NCBI GenBank assembly: GCA_902766825.1
Contig: CACXFB010000028.1
Coordinates: forward strand, 1 to 64,000
DNA: 64,000 nucleotides
Direction of reading: 5' to 3'
From: an uncultured Lachnospiraceae bacterium
GTDB lineage: Bacteria > Bacillota > Clostridia > Lachnospirales > Lachnospiraceae
Both the position numbers and the translations under genes were made by a program. The notes beneath the pieces are model-generated. The model was not told the origin of the DNA and searched no databases. It saw nothing but the letters and a program-made list of their open reading frames with translations. Positions 25,287 through 38,166 of this stretch are shown here, one piece after another. Within the stretch, counting starts at the first letter, position 1. Every line of letters starts with the position of its first letter.

Positions 25287-25316
25287 ATGGCAAAATGAAT
25301 TAAAAAGTTGTATAAT
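25287..25316 (+). promoter_or_regulatory. Candidate promoter of the pilus operon
   Basis: ATGGCA, 18 nt, TATAAT. Perfect -10, four of six at -35. The leader to the adhesin start at 25464 is about 140 nt. Confidence 0.5.
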
Positions 25317-25360
25317 GAAATAAATCCATCAAGAGATTGTGACGATAATATTTGTGAAAA

Positions 25361-25401
25361 TTATGCATATTCAACAATCGTGGTGCGTATAAAATGCATA
25401 A
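25361..25401 (+). other. Inverted repeat in the pilus leader
   Basis: TTATGCAT (25361-25368) and ATGCATAA (25394-25401) form an 8-bp stem with a 25-nt loop inside the predicted leader. It is followed by A-rich sequence, so it is not a terminator; it could be a binding site or an mRNA hairpin. Confidence 0.4.
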
Positions 25402-25463
25402 ACAAAAAAATGTGTTAGTTGTTCAAATATATCAGGGGAAGATACAAGGCAGGTGAGACAATA

Positions 25464-28400
25464 ATGAATAACAAAAAAATCAGGATAAAAAGTTCGACGA
25501 GATGTTATAGAGACCGTTTTATAGCCATGATTCTGGTTGCCAGTCTGTTGATATCCATGGCAGGAATCACAGATTTTATAAGAAACAAAGAAAGTATAAC
25601 CAAAGTACAGGCAGCGGCTCATAATCTGGCTGTCGGAGATTACATATATCTTTATACGGCATTCATTAGTGGTGATAATGAAAGAAACTGGCAGAGTGAT
25701 AGTGCTAAGATTTATTTTAGATACTGGAATGGTTCAGAACAGAAGGTGCTGGCTGAATCTGTTTCTGAGGATTATGTAAGAGTACAGGTTACCCAGGCGA
25801 TGAAGGATGCAAATTATTTTCAATGGCATAGATATGGTCCTGATGGTACATCCCGCTGGAATAGGATTGGACGGGATAATAATGATTTTACAATATCATC
25901 TGTACCGGATAATTGTAATGTATTTAAAATTGACGGTTGGGGAGATGGCTCGGAAGCGGGAAGCTGGAAGTCAAATGGTTCATGGCCTGATAGTGGATGG
26001 ATGGCTTCAGGAAACTGGCTGGAGGTTCATACTGATGACCCGTCGGGTGACCCAATTGAAGTTGAACTTAGCGACGATTTCAGGACAAAAATTGGTAATG
26101 GTGATGTTATAGCTGTAAAGGCCACATATTTTGATTATGTTTCAGACTATGAGCATCAGATGGGATGGCTGAATAACTACAGTAATATAAAGGTTAATAA
26201 TTCAACCTGGTTTCCGTTTACGGATTTTAACGAACATATTAGTTCTGTTGCATCGTCAGGTACGGTCAAACTTCCAATGTATTTTGGAAATTTTTATAAT
26301 GACAGTGGCAAATTTAATTACGGCGGCGAGATTTCAGGACTATATAATTACAATGATGCAGTGTCTACTGATACGAGTCAGGCTTACTATGATGTAAATA
26401 ACTCTAATGGACTAGCGGATTACCACCAGTCAATTCAGGGACTGGCAGGCGCTGCACTTGATAGTGATGGAGATATAGTATATTCCGGAACCAATGTAAA
26501 GATGCCTTATTTTGATAAGGCGGGACTTAAAAATGCATCTGTTGCTGATAATAAAGTTTATGCAAAGATAATTGAAAGTTATTTTCCATTTAGAAAGACA
26601 ATAAAACAGACAACATCCGGAGGAGATACAATTGACTATGCAGAGTATTCTTTTGATTCTACAGGTGCGACGGACAATGTATTCTTTAACTGGGATGGAT
26701 TTACACCACAGAGTGTGGGATATGGTGCAGGAACAGATTATGGAGTTATAGATTCAGCATCAAAGTTTGGGGGAAGCAATGATTATGGGATTTTTCCATT
26801 TAATAATTCTGCACTCACTAAGGGTAACAGAGGTGGTAATGATAATACTGATTATGGCTTTGGGGTAAGGCTGGATATAGATTTCTCTGTACCTACCAAT
26901 GGAACTGTAGATGGAACTGCAGGTGGACTTCCGGTTAAATTTGAGTATTCCGGTGATGACGATATGTTCGTGTACTTTGGAGAAAAAGCAGCAGGTGCTG
27001 AACTCGTGCTGGATCTTGGAGGTGCACATAAGCAGGCCGGCGGTTCGATTGATTTTCAGAGTATGACTGCTACGGTAGATAATTCCTATAAATCATATGT
27101 GGATCAAACATATATTGAAGAAGACGGTAATAAAAAAGTTACCCGGATTAATGGTGGTAACAGACTTGACCCGGGTAAAGTATATCATATGACTGTGTTT
27201 TATATGGAACGTGGTCTTGGAGAGTCTAACTTTACTGTAAATTATACTCTTCAGCCGGTGTCTACCGGATTTAAGATGGACAAGACCATTGATACGGGAA
27301 GCGTGGCAGATAGTATAGCAGATGTACTTAAGGAAAAGGAGAGTTTTGAGTACACAGTAAAAAAGTATAGTGGAGAAAATCTTATTAATATTTCTGATGA
27401 TGAGAAATATACAAGGATAAAGAGTGATGGGGTAAGAGTGGGTGACCAGACAGTAAGCACAGGTTCAAAGCTTAATCTTAAAGATAGTGAGGCGGCAGAC
27501 TTTGGAAACTCACTTACGATTAATACCAAGTTAAAAGTGGTGGAGAACCTTGGCAGCAGTAATCCTAAGAATGCATTATTGGAATACTCACCATCCTGGA
27601 GCCTGCATGACTTGAACACAGAGGATGATGTGGGAACGACCGTTGATGAAACACTGATTGAAGAGGATAGCAGTGAAACCTCAGAATTTACTTTGGTTGA
27701 CAGGACAAATCCAAGTGCGGATCCAAATATAGAACTTAGATACGTTAACACTTTGAGTACAACTGACCTGCAATTTAATAAGGAGACAAAGTTTAAGTCA
27801 GACACAAGTAAGAATTACATTGATAATACCAGTACATTCAGTGCAAAGCTGTTGTTGAATCTGGGTGTTAATCTTGTGGATGATGAGGAGGATGCAGGTT
27901 ACGAGTTATATAACGCACCTCTGTACAGTGCCCTTGACGATTCCGGTAAAGCAAATGCGAGGGCAGGCAACGGTAATTACAAGGTATATGCCGGAATAAA
28001 ATATTCGATTAATTCAGGAGCACAACAGACGCTTGGAAATACAGGTACTATACAGTTTAAGTCGGGGGATACGGTTACTATTAAGAATCTGCCAAAAGGA
28101 GCAGGATATCTGATAGTGGAAGATAACCCATCAGACACCAATTATGATACAGGGGTTGTCGTAGATGGAATTGTATCTGTTGGAGAAGCGGCGACTCTGA
28201 CTAACTATTACAATATACCAAAGACTAGTTATACGGTGGAAAAGAAATGGAAACTTCCATCCGGAGCGGATGATACCACCCATGTTCCGGGCAGTGTAAA
28301 GGTTTTGCTCCAAAGAAAAGAATCCGGTCAGGATGATTCAGAATATGCTGATGTTGGAACTGCATTTACACTGACAGGTTCAACGTGGACCCATACCTTT

Positions 28401-29048
28401 ACTCTTCTTGATACGATATCTACAAATAATAAGAGTTATATATACAGGGTAATGGAGATGTCAGGAGATTCGGTAATCGGTACAGGTGAAAGCATAAAGC
28501 TTAACTACGGAAGTCCTGGAGTTAACGGCAAATATGATGTTACATACAGCCATGATATGGGCAATAAAAAATCTGTGATTACCAACACCTATGTACCGGC
28601 AAAAATATCTGTAACCAAGGTTGATGCCACGGATCCTACAACAAAGCTTGGAGGTGTCAGTTTTACACTGGAAAGGCAGGGAGATTCATCATTTGGTACA
28701 GTTACAAAGACAACTCCTACTACCGGAGCATCCCTGGGAATAATAGAATTTGATAATCTGGAGGATGGAACCTATATACTTACAGAGACGGTGGCAAAGG
28801 AAGGGTACTCACTGCTAAAGAGTCCTATAACCATTGTGATTGACAGGAGTGAAGGCGGAAATTGTACTGTTGATGGTGAGACAGTGGCAATAACAGATGA
28901 GACAATTAGTCTGACTGTTAAGAATCAGGCAAAATTCCGATTCCCGGATACCGGTGGAGTCGGCGTGGGCATATACAGGCTTGCGGGATTAATGATGATT
29001 CTGATGGCAGTTATACTATATGTTGTTAGAAGGAGGAGGTGTATATGA
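25464..29048 (+). CDS. Pilus tip adhesin with fibro-slime and Cna-B domains, sortase-anchored
   Basis: 1194 residues. A long signal peptide (hydrophobic AMILVASLLISMAG) leads into an adhesive region. A fibro-slime-like domain lies at about 470-600 (FEYSGDDDMFVYF, LDLGGAHKQAGG). Prealbumin/Cna-B-like modules follow; the last has LGGVSFTLERQ and the E-box LTETVAKEGY, which helps form internal isopeptide bonds. It ends with the sorting signal FPDTGG, a TM and RRRR. A variant LPxTG plus large size and first place in the operon suggest the tip or ancillary subunit. The ATG at 25464 is chosen over 25419, since AGGTGAG lies 6 nt upstream. Confidence 0.88.
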   Translation: MNNKKIRIKSSTRCYRDRFIAMILVASLLISMAGITDFIRNKESITKVQAAAHNLAVGDYIYLYTAFISGDNERNWQSDSAKIYFRYWNGSEQKVLAESVSEDYVRVQVTQAMKDANYFQWHRYGPDGTSRWNRIGRDNNDFTISSVPDNCNVFKIDGWGDGSEAGSWKSNGSWPDSGWMASGNWLEVHTDDPSGDPIEVELSDDFRTKIGNGDVIAVKATYFDYVSDYEHQMGWLNNYSNIKVNNSTWFPFTDFNEHISSVASSGTVKLPMYFGNFYNDSGKFNYGGEISGLYNYNDAVSTDTSQAYYDVNNSNGLADYHQSIQGLAGAALDSDGDIVYSGTNVKMPYFDKAGLKNASVADNKVYAKIIESYFPFRKTIKQTTSGGDTIDYAEYSFDSTGATDNVFFNWDGFTPQSVGYGAGTDYGVIDSASKFGGSNDYGIFPFNNSALTKGNRGGNDNTDYGFGVRLDIDFSVPTNGTVDGTAGGLPVKFEYSGDDDMFVYFGEKAAGAELVLDLGGAHKQAGGSIDFQSMTATVDNSYKSYVDQTYIEEDGNKKVTRINGGNRLDPGKVYHMTVFYMERGLGESNFTVNYTLQPVSTGFKMDKTIDTGSVADSIADVLKEKESFEYTVKKYSGENLINISDDEKYTRIKSDGVRVGDQTVSTGSKLNLKDSEAADFGNSLTINTKLKVVENLGSSNPKNALLEYSPSWSLHDLNTEDDVGTTVDETLIEEDSSETSEFTLVDRTNPSADPNIELRYVNTLSTTDLQFNKETKFKSDTSKNYIDNTSTFSAKLLLNLGVNLVDDEEDAGYELYNAPLYSALDDSGKANARAGNGNYKVYAGIKYSINSGAQQTLGNTGTIQFKSGDTVTIKNLPKGAGYLIVEDNPSDTNYDTGVVVDGIVSVGEAATLTNYYNIPKTSYTVEKKWKLPSGADDTTHVPGSVKVLLQRKESGQDDSEYADVGTAFTLTGSTWTHTFTLLDTISTNNKSYIYRVMEMSGDSVIGTGESIKLNYGSPGVNGKYDVTYSHDMGNKKSVITNTYVPAKISVTKVDATDPTTKLGGVSFTLERQGDSSFGTVTKTTPTTGASLGIIEFDNLEDGTYILTETVAKEGYSLLKSPITIVIDRSEGGNCTVDGETVAITDETISLTVKNQAKFRFPDTGGVGVGIYRLAGLMMILMAVILYVVRRRRCI

Positions 29049-29154
29049 TGTATGAAAGATGAGGAGATAAAAACATAGACAAGTATGATTATAAGAAGGA
29101 AAACAAAGAAAATTAGAATTAAAAAAAGATTACGAATGTAAAGGAGAGATGACA

Positions 29155-31329
29155 ATGAAAGAAAAAAGAATAAAGAAGCTTTTGTCAGGAATGTTACAGA
29201 TGGCATTGATTATTTCAATGTTTACGGTTCCGGCAAAAGCAGATGATGTTATTAATACCAGTACGAATGTATCCCTCACTATTCACAGATACGAGTACAA
29301 TGGAAATGAAACATTACAGGCAGGCACAGGAGAAACGTCTGATGCAGCCAATATACCGACGGGAAGTACACCTCTTGACGGAATCGGCTATACCGTGTAT
29401 AAGATAGCAGATATATCGCAGGATAACAGTGTAAGTATTAAGTATAATGTTTTATCAGATTTACAGACAGCTTTTGGAAGCACCACCATTGATGCGTCAA
29501 CATCAGGAAAGACTCTTTATGATATGGCTGCTGTTAAGACGGTTTTGGATGGAAGAAGTGCAGCAAAAGCATTAGATGCCAATACGGCTAATGTCACAGC
29601 AGAAAAATTTACTTCATCAGGCAGTGTCACATTTAGCAATTCAGAGCTTAGCGGACAGGGATTGTATCTGGTTGTGGAGACAACCACAATTCACACTCAG
29701 ACGGCAGATCCTTTCCTTGTATCACTGCCGACAACTACCGGAAGTGGTGAGGATTGGTTGTATGAAGTGCATGCATATCCAAAAACAGCAACTAATGATG
29801 GCGAAATTACAATAAAAAAGAATATTATTACTGCAGGAACAACAGGTGCAGGAACTGCAATTGACGGTGCATCATTTTATATTCAAAAAGAAACATCTCC
29901 CGGTTCGGGAGTTTGGAATATAGTAACTGCTGATAAAAATGCTGCTCCGATAGGAACAGCAGGTCTTTTAACTATTACAGATGCATCTGCCGGAGTTACC
30001 GTGGCTTATCTGCCAACAGGCTCATATAGAGTTGTGGAAGTATCAGCACCTGCAGAGTCTATTACTGACAGCAGTTTATCATATCCGTTTACTATAGATG
30101 CATCGGGAAATGTAACAAGTTCCAGCGCAAACTTTTCGTCAGAAGTCTTCACAATTAAGAACGAAGTTCCGACAGTAGAAAAAAAGGTACTTAAAAAGGG
30201 CGGTAATATTAATAATGCCGGTGACTGGGCTGATGTTGCAGATTATAACATTGGAACAGGTAAGGATGATAAAATTACTTTCCAGGTTGCAGTAACGATT
30301 CCATCTAACATTGATAAACTTAAGACGTACAAGATGGTTGATGAATTTGATTCTGCTCAGTTTAATCAGGTGGCTGCAAGTGATGTGGATATAATATTCT
30401 ATTCCGACAGGGCAGCAGGAACAACTGTAGCTGCGGCAACTCTTGGCTTTAATAAAGCAACGGCATTTAGTACCGGCGCTACAGGCTGGACAATTGATTT
30501 ATCATCTATAAATAATGCATTAAAGACTAACATTGTTAAGGAAGTTGTTGTTAATTACACCACAACATTAAAGAGTACAGCAGTAATTGCAGGAGAAGGT
30601 AATATTAATACAGGTAAAGTTGAATTCACCAATCATATTTATCCTATATCAGATCCGCAGATGCCGGTTCAGAATCCGAAGGATGGTTCAGATCAACCTT
30701 ACGAGGACAGAACAATTGTTACCGATCAGGCAGCAGTATATACTTTTGGGCTGGGACTGGTAAAAAGCTTTGAAGGTGGTGATACTTCATCATTACACGC
30801 CAAGTTTGATCTTTACAGAAAGGCATACTCTGATGAATCAGGTACTACCATTGGTGGCGTTACTAATCTTATAAAGTTAAACAGCACACCTTATGAGACG
30901 GGTAATGATGGAAAGATAAGCATTACAGGAACAGGCTTAGGATTAGCTAATGGAACGAATACATATTACTTTGTAGAGACTGAGACGGCAGACGGATATA
31001 ACCTGCTTAAAGAGCCGGTGGCTGCAGATGTAAATATTACATATTCTAAGACTGCATTTCTTCAGACAATTACAGTTAACAGATATAACAGTGACGGAAC
31101 GCTTAAGGAGACACTTACCAGTATAACTACAACCCAGGCAGCGACAGCAACAAGCTATGAAGGCGGTTCGGGATACACGCAGGCATCTGTAGGAGTTGTC
31201 AACAAGAAAGGATTTACACTTCCTAAGACAGGTGGAAGGGGAACCTTGATTTTCACAATTATCGGTCTTGTCCTTATGGCAGGCGGTGTAGGTATCTACT
31301 TTAAGGGAAGAAAGAAAAAAGCCAACTAG
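29155..31329 (+). CDS. Major pilin subunit (isopeptide-forming, LPxTG)
   Basis: 724 residues from the ATG at 29155; the ATG at 29149 falls too close to the GGAGAG. Signal peptide (about 12-30), then an N-terminal pilin domain that ends in the pilin motif DWLYEVHAYPK, whose Lys a class C sortase would join to the next subunit. Two or three Cna-B/SpaA-like domains follow (E-box YYFVETETADGY near the end), then LPKTGG, a TM and a KGRKKK tail. This is the shaft of a covalent Gram-positive pilus. About 105 nt after the tip gene; followed by a strong hairpin before the sortase. Confidence 0.92.
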   Translation: MKEKRIKKLLSGMLQMALIISMFTVPAKADDVINTSTNVSLTIHRYEYNGNETLQAGTGETSDAANIPTGSTPLDGIGYTVYKIADISQDNSVSIKYNVLSDLQTAFGSTTIDASTSGKTLYDMAAVKTVLDGRSAAKALDANTANVTAEKFTSSGSVTFSNSELSGQGLYLVVETTTIHTQTADPFLVSLPTTTGSGEDWLYEVHAYPKTATNDGEITIKKNIITAGTTGAGTAIDGASFYIQKETSPGSGVWNIVTADKNAAPIGTAGLLTITDASAGVTVAYLPTGSYRVVEVSAPAESITDSSLSYPFTIDASGNVTSSSANFSSEVFTIKNEVPTVEKKVLKKGGNINNAGDWADVADYNIGTGKDDKITFQVAVTIPSNIDKLKTYKMVDEFDSAQFNQVAASDVDIIFYSDRAAGTTVAAATLGFNKATAFSTGATGWTIDLSSINNALKTNIVKEVVVNYTTTLKSTAVIAGEGNINTGKVEFTNHIYPISDPQMPVQNPKDGSDQPYEDRTIVTDQAAVYTFGLGLVKSFEGGDTSSLHAKFDLYRKAYSDESGTTIGGVTNLIKLNSTPYETGNDGKISITGTGLGLANGTNTYYFVETETADGYNLLKEPVAADVNITYSKTAFLQTITVNRYNSDGTLKETLTSITTTQAATATSYEGGSGYTQASVGVVNKKGFTLPKTGGRGTLIFTIIGLVLMAGGVGIYFKGRKKKAN

Positions 31330-31370
31330 CAGGTTGTAAAGTAAGGCTGGTGTATGAGCCTTGAGAAAAA

Positions 31371-31422
31371 AGATTACATATGCAGACCGTAGTTATCTAT
31401 GGTCTGCATATGTAATCTTCTT
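31371..31422 (+). terminator. 22-bp hairpin between pilin and sortase genes
   Basis: AGATTACATATGCAGACC (31371-31388) pairs perfectly with 31401-31418, and four more pairs close a TTAT loop. The tail TCTTCTTG is U-rich but not a pure run, so it may let some transcripts through. Only a weak TATAAT (31463) with a poor -35 is seen before the sortase. Confidence 0.7.
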
Positions 31423-31523
31423 GTCCATTTTGCGAAAGGTTTTAATTGTATGAAATATAGGGTATAATTTTAAGGAATACAATGTATAAAAGCATATAAA
31501 AACAATGAATATAAAATAAAATA

Positions 31524-32432
31524 ATGCAATCAAAAAATTATAATAAATCTATGAAAAACAAAAAAAACAAATCAAAGGTTAAAATAAAAATCAATAAGAA
31601 TAATATTCCGCTCTTCATTTTCTGCCTCATTATTTTTCTGACAGGCCTGGGGATTTTCATGTACCCTTTTGTGAGCAATATGATTAACAGACACAATGCA
31701 TCTGAAGCGATAACAGATTTTGATAAGCAGATTGCGGACATGGATAAAGATGATATTGATGTAATCAAACAGGCTGCAAAGGAATACAATCAACAACTCG
31801 AAAATGCGGTTCTTACAGGGGATGAGGAGAAACAAAGTTATAAAGACATAAGCGGAGTGGACAAGGTCATAGGATATATAGTAATCCCTAAGATTGATGT
31901 TAATCTGCCTATATACAGCGGAACCAGTCCCGAGGTCTTAAAGAAAGGTGCGGGGCATATGCAAAATTCCTCTTATCCTTTGGGAGGTTCAGGCACGCAT
32001 TGTGTTCTGACAGGTCACAGGGGTCTTCCAAGTGCCGTGTTATTCACTGACCTTGATAAGGTGGAACCGGGGGATGAATTTTACCTGCATGTGCTCGATG
32101 AGGTATTGGCTTATCAGGTGGATAAAATAAAAGTTGTGGAACCGACGGAGGGAACGGATTTGGGAATTGTTGAGGGAAAGGATTATTGTACTCTGGTGAC
32201 CTGTACCCCATATGCAATTAATTCCCACAGGCTGCTGGTACGCGGAACGAGAGTGGAATACAGTGAGGCACATCAGAATGATGAGGGTAAGACACAGTTG
32301 CAATCAGGTTCATTTACCAAAAGAGTTGTGGATGTGTGGCCATGGCTTTTAATAGCATCTGTAGTTATTCTGGGGGCTGAGGCGATAATATTTATAATGA
32401 TTATAAGAAAGGGCAGAAAGGAAAAGGAGTAG
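31524..32432 (+). CDS. Class C (pilus) sortase 1
   Basis: 302 residues. N-terminal TM (about 29-52), catalytic core and a C-terminal TM (about 272-296), the arrangement of pilin polymerases. His165 is in LTGHRGLP, Cys227 in TLVTCTPYA and the catalytic Arg (236) in NSHRLLVRG. It should join pilin subunits through the Lys of the YPK motif. No clear ribosome binding site precedes the ATG at 31524; an in-frame ATG at 31551 is equally possible. It sits after the hairpin that follows the major pilin, and its stop lies 5 nt before the MoxR start. Confidence 0.93.
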   Translation: MQSKNYNKSMKNKKNKSKVKIKINKNNIPLFIFCLIIFLTGLGIFMYPFVSNMINRHNASEAITDFDKQIADMDKDDIDVIKQAAKEYNQQLENAVLTGDEEKQSYKDISGVDKVIGYIVIPKIDVNLPIYSGTSPEVLKKGAGHMQNSSYPLGGSGTHCVLTGHRGLPSAVLFTDLDKVEPGDEFYLHVLDEVLAYQVDKIKVVEPTEGTDLGIVEGKDYCTLVTCTPYAINSHRLLVRGTRVEYSEAHQNDEGKTQLQSGSFTKRVVDVWPWLLIASVVILGAEAIIFIMIIRKGRKEKE

Positions 32433-32437
32433 AAGAT

Positions 32438-33388
32438 TTGGAATCATATATTTACGCACTTTATGTGATAGATGAAGTTAAAAAAGTTATATTGGGAAAA
32501 GATGAGTGCATCAGAAAGGTAATGGCAGCAATTCTTGCAAAAGGACATATTCTTATCGAAGATATTCCGGGAGTAGGAAAGACAAGCATGGCCCTTGCAT
32601 TTGCAAAAGCCATGGGAATAAAACAGAACAGGGTGCAGTTTACACCGGATGTTTTACCTACTGACATAGTGGGGTTCTCTTTGTACAGAAAAGAGCTGGG
32701 TACTTTTGAATATCAGGAGGGCGCAGTTATGTGCAATCTGTTTTTGGGGGATGAGATTAACCGTACGTCCCCAAAGACCCAGTCGGCACTTCTTGAGGTA
32801 ATGGAGGAAGAGACAGTCACGGTGGATGGTGTTACAAGACAGGTTCCAAAACCGTTTCATGTTATTGCCACCCAGAATCCAATTGGTTCTGTCGGTACAC
32901 AGATGCTGCCTGAATCCCAGCTGGACAGATTTATTGTGTGTATTCATATTGGATATCCTGACAAAAATGATGAGTTAAACATATTGTTAAGCAGAGACAA
33001 CGCCAATCCAATGGCAGAGGTTGAGGCTGTGGTAGATGGTGAGGAACTTTTAAAAATGCAGATGGAGACTGAAAAAATATTTATACATAAAAGTATATAT
33101 GAATATATTGTGGAATTGTCGGACTATACCAGAAAAAACGAAATGATAGAGCTTGGGATAAGCCCGAGAGGAACCCTTGCCATTGTCAGGATGGCCAAGG
33201 CCATTGCATATTTAAATGGTCGAAACTATGTTGTTGCATCGGATGTGACAGAGATTTTTCCGGATGTGGCATATCACAGGCTTATACTAAGTTCCAAGGG
33301 AAAACTAAATAATCTTACGGTGAATGAAATAATTAAGGACATAATAGAAAAAGTTAAAAGACCGGCACCGGTCAAAACGGTAGGATGA
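32438..33388 (+). CDS. MoxR family AAA+ ATPase
   Basis: 316 residues, usual MoxR size. Walker A is GVGKTS (near 47-52), Walker B LFLGDEINR (near 104-112), then SALLEVMEE, the sensor IATQNP and the LPESQLDRF Arg-finger region. MoxR ATPases act as chaperones with DUF58 and membrane partner proteins. The start is a TTG, placed by the AAGGAG at 32424-32429 that lies within the end of the sortase gene. Tightly packed with the DUF58 gene (7 nt). Confidence 0.92.
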   Translation: MESYIYALYVIDEVKKVILGKDECIRKVMAAILAKGHILIEDIPGVGKTSMALAFAKAMGIKQNRVQFTPDVLPTDIVGFSLYRKELGTFEYQEGAVMCNLFLGDEINRTSPKTQSALLEVMEEETVTVDGVTRQVPKPFHVIATQNPIGSVGTQMLPESQLDRFIVCIHIGYPDKNDELNILLSRDNANPMAEVEAVVDGEELLKMQMETEKIFIHKSIYEYIVELSDYTRKNEMIELGISPRGTLAIVRMAKAIAYLNGRNYVVASDVTEIFPDVAYHRLILSSKGKLNNLTVNEIIKDIIEKVKRPAPVKTVG

Positions 33389-33395
33389 GATAATA

Positions 33396-34529
33396 TTGAA
33401 GAATAAATTTTTATATGTGATTGTTGTTATAATTACGGTTCTGTTATGTGTATTTATGGGTTCAAAAACATCAGGTATGGTGTTGGCCTGTGAGATTATG
33501 CTGATACCGGCAATGGTTGTTTTACCGGTTTATCTGGCGTTTAAAATGGAAGCGGGAATTGAAATACCATATTTTCATGTAAAGAAGAACAGCGGATTTG
33601 TTATCAATGTAAGATTAAAAAATAAATCTTTATTTCCCATAAGTGTGTGTAAGGTGACCATAAGATGCATTAATAATTTTACAGGCAAAGAATATTTTTT
33701 TTCAAGAAAGATAATGCTGGATGGCAAATCGCAGGAGGTTTTGGGATTTGAATTTAAATCAGAATACTGCGGTAAATACGAAGTGATTCTTGATGAAGTA
33801 AAGATTTACGATTATTTCAGGGTGTTTTCCTATAATAAAAAAATGGTTAATGTTACGGATGAGATAATGGTTCAGCCGTTGCTTGGACGAATATTCATTG
33901 GTGGAAATGCAGCTATGAAGTCAAAACATGAATGGGAACAGTATTCACATACCAGCAGCGGAGAGGATACTTCGGAAGTGTTTGATGTTCATGAGTATAG
34001 ACAGGGGGATACTTTCTTAAAGGTTCATTGGAAACTAACCGCCAAGACTGACGAATATCTTGTGAAGGAATACAGTAAGCCTCTTGAAAACATGATTTTT
34101 CTTTTTGCGGATCTGAGGTGGAACAGTGAGGAGGTTATCACTGCAAAAATAGTGGATAATTTTTTTGAAATCCTTTCTGCACTTTCCTGGTCGTTGACCT
34201 GGGAGGGGATGAGCCATGTTGTCGTGTGGCATGCCGACAATAAGAAGGAGAACAAATATATTGAATCGGAAAACAACAATATAATGCTGGCACATGTGGA
34301 ATATGAGAAAGATGTCTACAGCATGATTGAGAGGATGTTTGATATGGGGCTTCCTGAAGATGATGTTGATGTTAAAAGAGAATACATTAATAATAATGAG
34401 CAGATTAAGGAACATAACAGTCTTATGGTTGACATGATGGGAAGAGTATATAGAGGAGATGTCTGTATCAAGAAATTTGATGTTGATAAAGTGGAAGAGG
34501 AAATAATGGAATGGAAACTGGAAATTTAG
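33396..34529 (+). CDS. DUF58 domain protein
   Basis: 377 residues with two TM segments at the N terminus (about 3-20 and 28-46), a beta-rich middle and the DUF58 hallmark EYRQGDTFLKVHWKLTAK followed by VKEYSKP. DUF58 proteins often pair with MoxR and carry a von Willebrand-like fold. It probably starts at TTG 33396 (AGGATGAG upstream). The 3' end overlaps the next gene by 19 nt, which suggests translational coupling. Its place between two pilus sortases is inferred to link the module with pilus assembly or wall anchoring. Confidence 0.88.
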   Translation: MKNKFLYVIVVIITVLLCVFMGSKTSGMVLACEIMLIPAMVVLPVYLAFKMEAGIEIPYFHVKKNSGFVINVRLKNKSLFPISVCKVTIRCINNFTGKEYFFSRKIMLDGKSQEVLGFEFKSEYCGKYEVILDEVKIYDYFRVFSYNKKMVNVTDEIMVQPLLGRIFIGGNAAMKSKHEWEQYSHTSSGEDTSEVFDVHEYRQGDTFLKVHWKLTAKTDEYLVKEYSKPLENMIFLFADLRWNSEEVITAKIVDNFFEILSALSWSLTWEGMSHVVVWHADNKKENKYIESENNNIMLAHVEYEKDVYSMIERMFDMGLPEDDVDVKREYINNNEQIKEHNSLMVDMMGRVYRGDVCIKKFDVDKVEEEIMEWKLEI

Positions 34530-37030
34530 CACAGCATGAGCTTTATGTGACAGGATACCGGCTTACCTGTAATAACAAAAAGGCTGCCTGGCGACATTCG
34601 TCTGCGGTGGCTGTTGACATAATTACCATGGCAGTGCTTGTCTGGATTTTTGTAATGGCTGTTGTGGGAACAATTCTGGATTCCTATAACATTAGTATTG
34701 ACAATAGACTTTTGCAAATAACCTTTATTATTTTTTCTCTTTTCTTTTCAATCCGATACAATTTCATTCTTTTGATATCAAAGGAAAAAAGGAACGGAAA
34801 AATAATGAGTTTTTTCTTTGCCGGTTTACTGGCAGGAGTGTTTATATTATCTGCCACTCTCCTGAGAAACAATATTTCAGCGGGAATAAGAAGCATAACA
34901 GATGATGTAATCATAAGGTTAAACACAACCTATGGGGGAAGCATTCCGCTTGTCAACAGCACAGGCAAGGGCAAAGAGCAGGTATTTATCTTCGTGGGAT
35001 TTATTATTACGTGGATAGCTGCAAGAGCAATAATATTAAAGAGAGATAATCTTAGAATAGCAGCCGTTCTCTTCCCTGTTTTTATATTGTGTGGAATTGG
35101 TGGAGGGAAAATAAGCAGTATTCATGGGGTAATGATGGCATATGTTGTGGTAACTATCACTGTTATCTCGGGAATCAGACGTTACAGATCACTTTGGGGA
35201 GAAAAGAAGAGCGATAACTATAACTGCAATCACAGGATGGATGTCATGATCCGGGTCAAAGTACTGATTGTAAGTATTCCGGCAATGTTTGTGGTGATTA
35301 TTTTGTCCACCGCAATACTTGCAAAGCCGTTGTCGGTACCGCTTGGAAAATTGTCTGATGCAACCTACGACATCAGGGTATCAGGAGTGAGAATGATTGG
35401 CGAATTACTGCCAAGGCTATATGATACCAACGTGACACTTTTGGCAGAAGGTGTAGGCGGAGGTGTATCAGGTGGTATACTTGGTGAACTTGAGGGCACA
35501 TTTTATACCATGAAAGAAAATATTAAAGTAACCTGCAGTGAACTTCCCGGGGAAACGGTTTATCTGAAAGGATATGTAGGATCACAGTATGACACCGACC
35601 GTTGGATTAATGATGACGAAAAGGGATATCTTGATACTTTGAGACATTGGTCTACCCAGGGCGATGCACAAAGTTATGTTTATAATATTCCATTTTTGCG
35701 AATGGCATATGCAGTGGATTTGCTGGGGGGTGACTATAAATCCTATGAACCGTCATATATATCAGTGGAATCAATGGATGAAAACATTTCCTATACCTAT
35801 ATACCCTACAATGTGTATATCAATGATTATTACCGGATAGGTGGCGGTGATGCATACGTTATCGGACAAAGTGAGTATGAGAATACTTTTCCATGGTTTT
35901 ACGGGGAGGATGTCAAGGAGGTTATGGCACAATACAGAAAGTACACTGATAAAACAGGTAAGTACAGTGTGTTAGATGAGGTTGAGGCATCCTATGAATA
36001 CTTCGTTAAAGCGAATGACGTTAAATATGACAAGGAGAATATGGAGAGACTTTATGACCTTTGCGAGGAAAAGATAAATGAGTGGGATAATAAGATAAAA
36101 CCGGATATGACAAAGGTTCAAAAAGATGAACTCCTGGAAGAAAAAATTGATGATGTTACCAATTTTATCAGGAAAACTCTGTGGGAAAACGCTGCATTTG
36201 AATCTAAGGCGATTAAACTGCCGGAGGGTGAAGATTACGTTAACTACTTTTTATTTGAAAAAAAGCAGGGAGATTCTACGGCATTTGCCTCTGCCGCAAC
36301 AATTATGTTCAGGATGTTTGACATTCCTGCAAGATATGTTGAGGGTTATGTTGCTCCGGTAAATATTTTTCAGGCTGATGAAAATGAAGAGTATTATGCC
36401 ATACTTCAGGATGATAATGCTCATGCGTGGGTTGAAATATATGTTTCAGGTTCAGGCTGGACGCAGGTTGAAACCACGCCGGGATTTGAAGGAAGAATAT
36501 CTAATCTGGATATGCCGCAGGATTTAAAGGACAAAGAGGAAGATAAGACAGATTCTAAGGATGAGGCGGGCAACGATGAAAATGAGTCCGCAAAGGGTAT
36601 GAGCACCGGTAAAAAAACAGCATATCTGACAATAATCCTGTTGTTTCTGATAATCATTTTTCTTATAGTCAGACATATGGTTACATACCGTGCCAGAAGA
36701 GGTAAAATAGGAGCAAAGGATGACGAGGCAAAGGTAAAAAGAATATTCTACAGCTTCTATGATGTGTTGATTTATGACGGATTTGATTCAAAAATTGATA
36801 CAACATCAGGGGCATTTGTTTGTGAGATTGCCAACAGGTACCCGGAATTTGAAATCAATGAAGTAAAAAAATACATGAATATTGTGCTGTGTACCCATTA
36901 TGGGCCGGATAAGCCTTCAAAGGAAGATGTACAGCTGTCTGAAAAGATGTATGAAAAGCTTGTGGAGACGGTTTATAAAAGGCTTGGCAGACGAAGAAGA
37001 ATTGGTTTTAAACTATGGAAGGCATTCTAG
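34511..37030 (+). CDS. Large membrane transglutaminase-like protein (DUF3488/TgpA type) with Ser at the Cys position
   Basis: 839 residues. Six or so TM segments in the first 270 residues, an outside region, a transglutaminase-like domain (about 575-660), a TM (about 700-718) and a cytoplasmic tail with a DUF4129-like segment. In homologues the domain reads GYC.HFASA; here it is QGDSTAFASA, so residue 589 is Ser instead of the catalytic Cys. The His (DNAHAWVEIY) and acidic (VETTPGFE) positions remain. It may therefore be non-catalytic, or a scaffold. Overlaps DUF58 by 19 nt; a sortase follows after 50 nt. Confidence 0.85.
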   Translation: METGNLAQHELYVTGYRLTCNNKKAAWRHSSAVAVDIITMAVLVWIFVMAVVGTILDSYNISIDNRLLQITFIIFSLFFSIRYNFILLISKEKRNGKIMSFFFAGLLAGVFILSATLLRNNISAGIRSITDDVIIRLNTTYGGSIPLVNSTGKGKEQVFIFVGFIITWIAARAIILKRDNLRIAAVLFPVFILCGIGGGKISSIHGVMMAYVVVTITVISGIRRYRSLWGEKKSDNYNCNHRMDVMIRVKVLIVSIPAMFVVIILSTAILAKPLSVPLGKLSDATYDIRVSGVRMIGELLPRLYDTNVTLLAEGVGGGVSGGILGELEGTFYTMKENIKVTCSELPGETVYLKGYVGSQYDTDRWINDDEKGYLDTLRHWSTQGDAQSYVYNIPFLRMAYAVDLLGGDYKSYEPSYISVESMDENISYTYIPYNVYINDYYRIGGGDAYVIGQSEYENTFPWFYGEDVKEVMAQYRKYTDKTGKYSVLDEVEASYEYFVKANDVKYDKENMERLYDLCEEKINEWDNKIKPDMTKVQKDELLEEKIDDVTNFIRKTLWENAAFESKAIKLPEGEDYVNYFLFEKKQGDSTAFASAATIMFRMFDIPARYVEGYVAPVNIFQADENEEYYAILQDDNAHAWVEIYVSGSGWTQVETTPGFEGRISNLDMPQDLKDKEEDKTDSKDEAGNDENESAKGMSTGKKTAYLTIILLFLIIIFLIVRHMVTYRARRGKIGAKDDEAKVKRIFYSFYDVLIYDGFDSKIDTTSGAFVCEIANRYPEFEINEVKKYMNIVLCTHYGPDKPSKEDVQLSEKMYEKLVETVYKRLGRRRRIGFKLWKAF

Positions 37031-37080
37031 GTATAGAAATGAAATAGGCAGGACCAAAGTATGGAATTGGAGTGGCTTAC

Positions 37081-38166
37081 ATGAAGAATAAAAGAAAAAC
37101 CATAATAGCGGCTATATTTTTTCTGGCAGGTGCAGCTTTAGTTGCATATCCCTTTTGCATGGACAGATGGGCACAGTATCGGAGTTCAAAAGTCATTGAT
37201 GAATTCATGAATGACCTGGATCAAATGAGAGAAGTTGTGGAGAATGAGAAACTTGAGGATTTACTTGAGATGGAGGCATCAGGGGAAGATGTGGAGAATG
37301 AGGAAACTGACGGGGAGAGTAAACAAGCTGATGAGGAAACTGACAGGCTCCTTCAATTATACAAAGACATGTGTGCGTACAACAGACAGTTATATGCAGA
37401 CGGACAGTCCGGCCTTAAGGATCCGTTTTCGTATGAGACGCCTTCATTTGACCTGACGGAATATGGCTTTAGTAATAATGTTATCGGAATAATTGATATT
37501 GATAGTATGGACGTTCACCTGCCATTATATTTGGGTGCAAATAAGGAAAATATGAAAAAAGGTGCTGTTGTAATGGGGCAGACATCAATGCCTACCAGAC
37601 AGACTAATACAAATATGGTTGTGGCTGCGCACAGAGGCTATCGGGGGATAAAGATGTTTCGGGAGATTGAAAATGTTCAGGTGGGAGATGTTATTAAAGT
37701 TACTACCCCTTTTGATACGTTGATTTACAGGGTTACGCAGACAAAAGTGATTTTACCTGAACAGGTGGATGAAACCTTAATCAGGCCGGGGGAGTGCAGG
37801 ATTACCCTTCTTACCTGCCATCCCTACACAAAGAACTCTCACAGATATCTTGTGTATGCAAAGAGGGAGGATGCAGGCAATTCATCAGAACAGCCCCTGG
37901 AAGATGACAATGAATCATCTAAAGAGCACAGGGCGGATGAAGAAAATAATGTAGTTGAATCAGAAAAAAAAGAAGCTGCAAATCAGAACGACGATACGAC
38001 CGTACAATCTGCGGATAACAAAAAAACGGGAACAGGGGAGGCTGCACGGATTAAGGATGATTCAGATTTGATGATTAATCTGGAAAAATATTTGCCTGTA
38101 GCAGGAATTGTGGTTATAATTATTATGATTGTTGTGGGATTTTTCCTCACAAACAAAAAGAATTAA
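37081..38166 (+). CDS. Class C (pilus) sortase 2
   Basis: 361 residues. The start is the ATG at 37081, since GGAG is 8 nt upstream of it (GTG 37072 overlaps that site). N-terminal TM, then an acidic insertion (about 50-95), the sortase core with His184 (AAHRGYRG), Cys246 (LLTCHPYTK) and Arg255 (NSHRYLVYA), a long acidic linker and a C-terminal TM. It differs from sortase 1 in its HPYT active-site loop and the 80-residue linker, so it may have another substrate, such as the FPDTG tip protein (inference). Last gene of the pilus locus. Confidence 0.9.
   Translation: MKNKRKTIIAAIFFLAGAALVAYPFCMDRWAQYRSSKVIDEFMNDLDQMREVVENEKLEDLLEMEASGEDVENEETDGESKQADEETDRLLQLYKDMCAYNRQLYADGQSGLKDPFSYETPSFDLTEYGFSNNVIGIIDIDSMDVHLPLYLGANKENMKKGAVVMGQTSMPTRQTNTNMVVAAHRGYRGIKMFREIENVQVGDVIKVTTPFDTLIYRVTQTKVILPEQVDETLIRPGECRITLLTCHPYTKNSHRYLVYAKREDAGNSSEQPLEDDNESSKEHRADEENNVVESEKKEAANQNDDTTVQSADNKKTGTGEAARIKDDSDLMINLEKYLPVAGIVVIIIMIVVGFFLTNKKN

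Follow-up and report, generated by a model that had tools for sequence, protein, structure and literature searches.

The window analysed here, 64,000 nucleotides (nt) of the forward strand from an uncultured Lachnospiraceae bacterium (GenBank assembly GCA_902766825.1, contig CACXFB010000028.1, positions 1 to 64,000), carries a class C sortase-pilus operon that incorporates a triad of genes for a MoxR ATPase, a DUF58 protein and a TgpA-like protein with a transglutaminase fold. The arrangement recurs in 22 loci, in every one of which the TgpA-like protein has lost the cysteine (Cys) expected to act as the transglutaminase nucleophile. We consider it fairly probable that such an operon encodes its own assembly module, in which a Cys-less TgpA-like ectodomain holds the pilin or the sortase and is coupled to a cytoplasmic MoxR/DUF58 ATPase. 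The genes, and the codon at the center of the argument, are as follows.

25419..29048, + strand: tip adhesin with SpaA/Cna_B domains, a weak fibro-slime match and a C-terminal FPDTG sorting signal
29149..31329, + strand: major pilin of the SpaH/EbpB type, with GramPos_pilinD1 domain, isopeptide D2 domain, YPK pilin motif and LPKTG sorting signal
31524..32432, + strand: class C (pilin-polymerising) sortase SrtC1, with TLVTC catalytic motif and two transmembrane segments
32438..33388, + strand: MoxR AAA+ ATPase, Walker A (PGVGKT) and Walker B (GDEINR) both intact (PF07726, 1e-53)
33396..34529, + strand: DUF58 protein with two N-terminal transmembrane helices, a beta-sandwich domain and a C-terminal DUF58 part
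34511..37030, + strand: TgpA-like polytopic membrane protein, no catalytic Cys (PF01841, Transglut_core, 7.6e-19)
36275..36277, + strand: Ser589 codon, aligned with the nucleophile Cys of transglutaminases; His638 and Glu654 retained
37072..38166, + strand: SrtC2, a second class C-like sortase, with TLLTCHPY motif and DPF lid motif

The computed gene order agrees with the one given by an earlier, sequence-only reading of this DNA: all seven genes are present and co-directional from 25419 to 38166, and they are tightly packed from SrtC1 onward. The distances it gave (5, 7, -19 and 50 nt) are borne out as well, the last holding if SrtC2 starts at ATG 37081 and being 41 nt otherwise; the tip adhesin is called from TTG 25419, with ATG 25464 the likelier start. 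By its gene content the locus is a predicted class C sortase-pilus operon. The pilin matches NF033902 (the NCBIfam SpaH/EbpB major pilin family) with 170.6 bits at a cut-off of 95 and bears an LPXTG-type signal, and the adjoining SrtC1 reaches 266.9 bits against NF033745 (class C sortase) at a cut-off of 160, a threshold that SrtC2 barely passes (173.3 bits). The triad consists of three adjacent, co-directional genes of the named families, where the DUF58 protein, with 20.9 bits against PF01882, falls under the cut-off of 23.4 and was assigned by its position and its alignability with the other loci.

The missing cysteine is the point that most constrains the mechanism. While the sequence-only reading was right to tie the transglutaminase-like protein to the pilus by position, it overlooked this loss, which we computed for 22 of 22 pilus TgpA proteins: 21 have serine at the nucleophile position and one, in G030 (L052), has alanine. 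In the alignment, the pilus proteins read G-[DYS]-S-x-x-[FY]-A where their Cys-bearing relatives read G-[YF]-C-x-[HY]-[FY]-A, and against the crystal structure of Pseudomonas aeruginosa TgpA, Ser589 coincides with the Cys of GFCAHYA. The other two triad residues, His and Glu, are invariant in pilus TgpA. Among loci without an adjoining class C sortase, the Cys is present in 26 of 28 from the family and 28 of 29 from the class (two class loci repeat family loci). It is also kept, as GYC, by both TgpA paralogues of the window's own genome, which belong to two further triads on contigs C7 and C97, neither adjoining sortases. The Cys-His-Asp/Glu set of an active transglutaminase is incomplete in the window, where Ser589 takes the Cys position, and because the nucleophile is missing, canonical crosslinking is unlikely and the usual site can no longer support thioester chemistry. 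Transglutaminase crosslinking of pilins was accordingly rejected as the leading idea.

Might the protein still be an enzyme, with Ser589, His638 and Glu654 forming a serine acyl-transferase or protease that acts on pilin, sortase or peptidoglycan? Serine stands in 21 of the 22 loci despite only about 25-50% identity to the window's protein, with His and Glu invariant, as one would expect of such an enzyme. However, the locus with alanine is otherwise intact, the position is Ser, Ala or Asp in a second Cys-less clade described below, and in papain-fold enzymes a Cys-to-Ser change usually abolishes activity. We regard a serine enzyme as decidedly unlikely; given the lost catalytic Cys, the "transglutaminase" is probably a dedicated assembly helper.

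The conservation of the arrangement was computed by a scan with the TgpA-like protein, one genome per species, which yielded 27 loci. In 18 of these, tip and/or pilin, SrtC1, MoxR, DUF58 and TgpA stand together in the window's order. Together with L055 (both sortases and the triad as a contiguous block, no adjoining pilin gene), the window's own locus and a pair of loci from genome G655, they make up the 22 loci, among which L047/L053/L060, L050/L062 and L058/L059 are near-duplicates. Sources include Lachnospiraceae metagenome-assembled genomes from rumen and gut, Blautia sp. MSJ-19 (L057), Gemmiger formicilis (L056, L058, L059), a Ruminococcaceae metagenome-assembled genome (L049) and a Eubacteriales record (L054). 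With 22 loci the arrangement is no peculiarity of one strain, and the view that the triad is part of the operon rather than a chance neighbor stands, qualified by a 194-nt, hairpin-bearing gap between pilin and SrtC1. Enclosure of the triad by two sortases, also proposed by the sequence-only reading, holds in the window but not in general: across the loci SrtC2 may follow TgpA, lie between SrtC1 and MoxR, be replaced, or not be seen. In some loci an unrelated class C sortase takes its place, together with a fusion of pilin and sortase.

A profile of the pilus-type TgpA was run on 397 Lachnospiraceae-level relatives, evenly sampled and covering 334 genera, and its matches split sharply, with six loci in five genomes above 800 bits and all others at or below 409. 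All six high-scoring loci are pilus loci, so this kind of triad is not equally common beside unrelated genes. Four of the low-scoring loci were read, and each is a triad that stands by itself, away from any sortase; the lower-scoring triads fall in other clades, as separate paralogues. No additional locus of this type came from 391 evenly sampled genomes of the class, among which Ruminococcaceae are thinly represented. Across 150 genomes of 150 genera, a TgpA-like match was obtained in 82 and a class C sortase match in 85, and the window's arrangement occurs only in G030; in G097, a DUF58-TgpA-sortase run is accompanied by LPQTG proteins of a different type. The 44 class C sortase loci of the family that served as controls (L070-L109 and L112-L115, a few of them short contigs) showed neither a MoxR nor a TgpA gene. 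The triad-bearing pilus locus is a special lineage, not a common feature of sortase pili, and seems restricted in range.

Linked genes can be co-inherited without functional coupling, and few genomes (5 of the 397) have the locus, as would fit a passenger: an envelope operon of general function that was joined to pilus genes and carried along as they spread. Yet the triad lies inside the pilus genes in every locus, adjoining SrtC1 or one sortase away, across deep divergence; the pilus-type triad was not seen elsewhere except in L048; and the active-site change coincides on the tree with linkage to pilus genes. We judge a passenger very improbable, and strongly infer a role for the triad in pilus biogenesis.

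Co-inheritance was computed from trees and distance matrices. All pilus-locus TgpA proteins fall into a single clade (support of 100 in the Shimodaira-Hasegawa approximate likelihood ratio test, used throughout), nested among Cys-bearing triads and with L048 as sole extra member. SrtC1 likewise forms one clade among class C sortases (99). SrtC2 makes up a separate clade (96) with the motif TLxTCHPY, on a deep branch to which a small number of sortases from other loci also belong. A third clade (98) holds the replacement sortase found in the L050/L052/L053/L062 group. Groupings common to the SrtC1 and TgpA trees are L051 with L057 (plus L048 in the TgpA tree), L179 with L055, L056 with L058, L052 with the pair L050 and L053, and the window with L044, L043 lying outside. 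Distance-matrix correlations with TgpA were 0.87 for SrtC1, 0.87 for MoxR, 0.93 for DUF58 and 0.70 for the pilin, and 0.89 between SrtC1 and DUF58; none was reached in 2000 shuffles, shared species ancestry contributing to the values. SrtC1 tracks TgpA as closely as the triad member MoxR does. In G655, the two diverged pilus loci split consistently, sortases and TgpA alike, into two different subclades, and the unit is therefore inherited as a block. SrtC1 and the triad are its constant core, while SrtC2 is movable, replaceable or not seen. Polymerisation, together with SrtC1, is the most likely point of action of the helper.

The same pattern bears on whether the module acts on the envelope instead of the fibre, opening or remodelling the wall or sensing envelope state for anchoring and passage of the pilus. 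Unlinked triads are widespread (the 82 of 150 genera above), and the viability of P. aeruginosa depends critically on its TgpA (PMC3507681); the ancestral role was therefore probably in the envelope. The second Cys-less clade, near other surface-protein genes, points the same way. Against this, it is the polymerising SrtC1 that tracks the triad as closely as the triad members track each other, whereas SrtC2, perhaps the anchoring sortase, is the one that is replaceable or not seen. We consider an envelope module unlikely. A further candidate distinction, that triad-linked SrtC1 uniquely has no autoinhibitory DP(F/W) lid, was rejected: the lid is absent in every SrtC1 read and present in nearly every SrtC2, but many unlinked control class C sortases of the family do without it as well.

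Structure prediction gave an outline of how an assembly module might be built. The TgpA-like protein is predicted to have seven N-terminal transmembrane segments, an ectodomain at about residues 276-703 with the transglutaminase core at 536-660, one further transmembrane segment and a cytoplasmic tail. This is the architecture of the TgpA-like family (N-terminal membrane bundle, transglutaminase-fold ectodomain, one C-terminal membrane segment), a statement about fold and not about activity. The AlphaFold2 model (15 sequences; mean predicted local distance difference test score [pLDDT] 74.5, predicted template modelling score 0.47) has the TgpA periplasmic domain, 6g4h, as its top PDB match (E 3.9e-8). 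For the DUF58 protein (pLDDT 77.5), the model shows two N-terminal helices and a beta-sandwich, with the DUF58 part poorly modelled, and a structure search against the PDB returned generic beta-sandwich matches only. DUF58 and TgpA form a single reading frame in Gemmiger (L056, L058, L059) and in L051, which suggests direct contact between the two; a frame error is possible in single fused records, and the three Gemmiger records agree.

The mechanism that we infer combines physical contact, a lack of catalysis and ATP-driven remodelling. SrtC1 would polymerise the pilin, with MoxR, DUF58 and the TgpA-like protein acting alongside it as one unit. The extracellular fold of the TgpA-like protein would bind pilin (or SrtC1) at the membrane and keep it ready for polymerisation, forming no bond itself; its cleft would hold a pilin segment or SrtC1, and MoxR, through DUF58, would drive binding and release. 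The cytoplasmic tail and the membrane-bound DUF58 protein would provide the link to the MoxR ring, whose ATPase cycle would remodel or reset the complex, as NorQ does via NorD. The suggestion of the sequence-only reading that the triad belongs to the pilus unit as a chaperone or scaffold remains the best one.

Four observations weigh against an assembly module of this kind. The triad is absent from the majority of class C sortase pili in the family. L048 (1234-5832) is a pilus-clade triad, with the Cys replaced by Ser, on a 7.6-kb contig that has no pilus gene. The Cys was lost once in the pilus clade, so that the 22 loci represent one evolutionary event, not 22. Finally, Ser is kept at the Cys position in 18 of 19 sequences compared, a residue that a purely structural protein would not need.

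The three Cys-less exceptions among the control loci, together with G097, form a separate clade (99), and Cys loss therefore arose at least twice. A profile of this second clade retrieved 16 more loci, all without the Cys (Ser, Ala or Asp). Its MoxR-DUF58-TgpA triads (L111, L145, L205-L220, L036 and L110) often stand beside large secreted proteins; neighbors include cohesin or dockerin-like proteins (L111, L145, L206, L212), DUF4430, alpha/alpha-toroid and Big_2/choline-binding repeats. L211 has genes for CbiQ/EcfT, a double ABC ATPase and an ECF S-component, and similar-looking genes occur in L205, L210 and L218; this clade may serve to capture a vitamin, for instance a corrinoid, at the cell surface. 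As a tentative extension, on balance doubtful, Cys-less TgpA with MoxR/DUF58 could be a general class of ATP-powered surface assembly machines with at least two origins, one serving sortase pili and the other serving large surface proteins of other kinds, next to cohesin/dockerin-like, DUF4430 and ECF-transporter genes. If this is true, covalent pilus assembly, which is commonly assumed to require no cytoplasmic ATPase, would here be driven by one dedicated to it.

Two noncoding features accompany the operon.

25287..25316, + strand: promoter-like hexamers ATGGCA-18-TATAAT 5' of the tip gene, from a consensus scan only
31370..31419, + strand: 23-bp perfect hairpin without a clear T tract, in the pilin-SrtC1 interval

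In the consensus scan, promoter matches across the region, these hexamers included, were not above the count in shuffles. The hairpin is a candidate RNA processing or attenuation site. Of 10 other loci tested, 6 have a hairpin of at least 14 bp, unrelated in sequence, in their own pilin-SrtC1 interval, and this recurrence makes it likely that the pilin and the sortase-triad part are expressed at differing levels. The flanking genes, a metallophosphoesterase (- strand) upstream and AIM24-family and GH18/LysM genes downstream, are unlike members of the system.

Some further gene arrangements were seen along the way. In L035 (3995-5326, - strand), a small SpaA-domain protein with LPQTG signal and transmembrane segment is fused to a sortase domain in one polypeptide, encoded downstream of the replacement sortase; it is possibly a base pilin carrying its own anchoring sortase, and similar fusions occur in L050, L053, L060 and L062. 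L063 (13499-18794) has a second set of tip-like and pilin-like genes immediately after sortase 2. In the window's own genome, the only other class C sortase family match (G000:C57; L039 10621-14812) scores 102.7 bits, below the cut-off; about 1.5 kb away is a PTEEPT-repeat protein of 640 aa that bears an LPQTG signal.

Pilus operons and triads are each of known kinds; what is new is their fixed combination and the Cys-less TgpA. A literature search that left most subscription papers uncovered returned no paper combining sortase, MoxR, DUF58 and transglutaminase, and no Cys-less TgpA. MoxR-DUF58-transglutaminase triads are widespread and their function is unsettled, so that a lineage tied to a covalent pilus, a defined and visible product, offers a first handle on their role. 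With the Cys lost, binding is separated from catalysis, which suggests that some of this large family act as non-catalytic assembly factors.

Like the SpaA/Ebp-type sortase pili of corynebacteria, enterococci and streptococci, the window has a tip adhesin, a SpaH/EbpB-type LPXTG pilin and a class C sortase; the islands of those bacteria are not known to include a MoxR-DUF58-TgpA module. P. aeruginosa TgpA, from the PA2875-PA2872 operon (PMC3507681; PDB 6g49/6g4h), is an operon-encoded membrane protein of the same family and ectodomain fold, but it keeps its catalytic triad, has observed transglutaminase activity and is accompanied by no sortase or pilin. The Bifidobacterium PFNA operon (PMC6803598, PMC8430577) likewise places AAA-ATPase, DUF58 and transglutaminase genes by a large FN3 protein; it differs in having a Ser/Thr kinase, and PMC6803598 mentions no sortase or pilus. 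NorQ is a MoxR ATPase that remodels its membrane target through the partner NorD (PMC13036017), and with other MoxR-VWA pairs (PMC13036017, PMC9976466) it shares the principle of a MoxR ATPase working via a partner on a membrane protein. In those pairs, however, the target is a metalloenzyme, and the VWA partner has a metal ion-dependent adhesion site motif that the DUF58 alignment here does not contain. A parallel in proposed working is SipA of the Streptococcus pyogenes FCT pilus region, an inactive signal-peptidase homologue essential for pilus polymerisation (PMC4049620): by hypothesis, both are enzyme folds without catalytic residues in a sortase pilus cluster. SipA is a single small protein with a signal-peptidase fold and no ATPase partner, whereas the TgpA-like protein has a transglutaminase fold and is not homologous to it. 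If our proposal is true, pilus biology would gain a second kind of inactive-enzyme helper after SipA, possibly with energy input from the cytoplasm.

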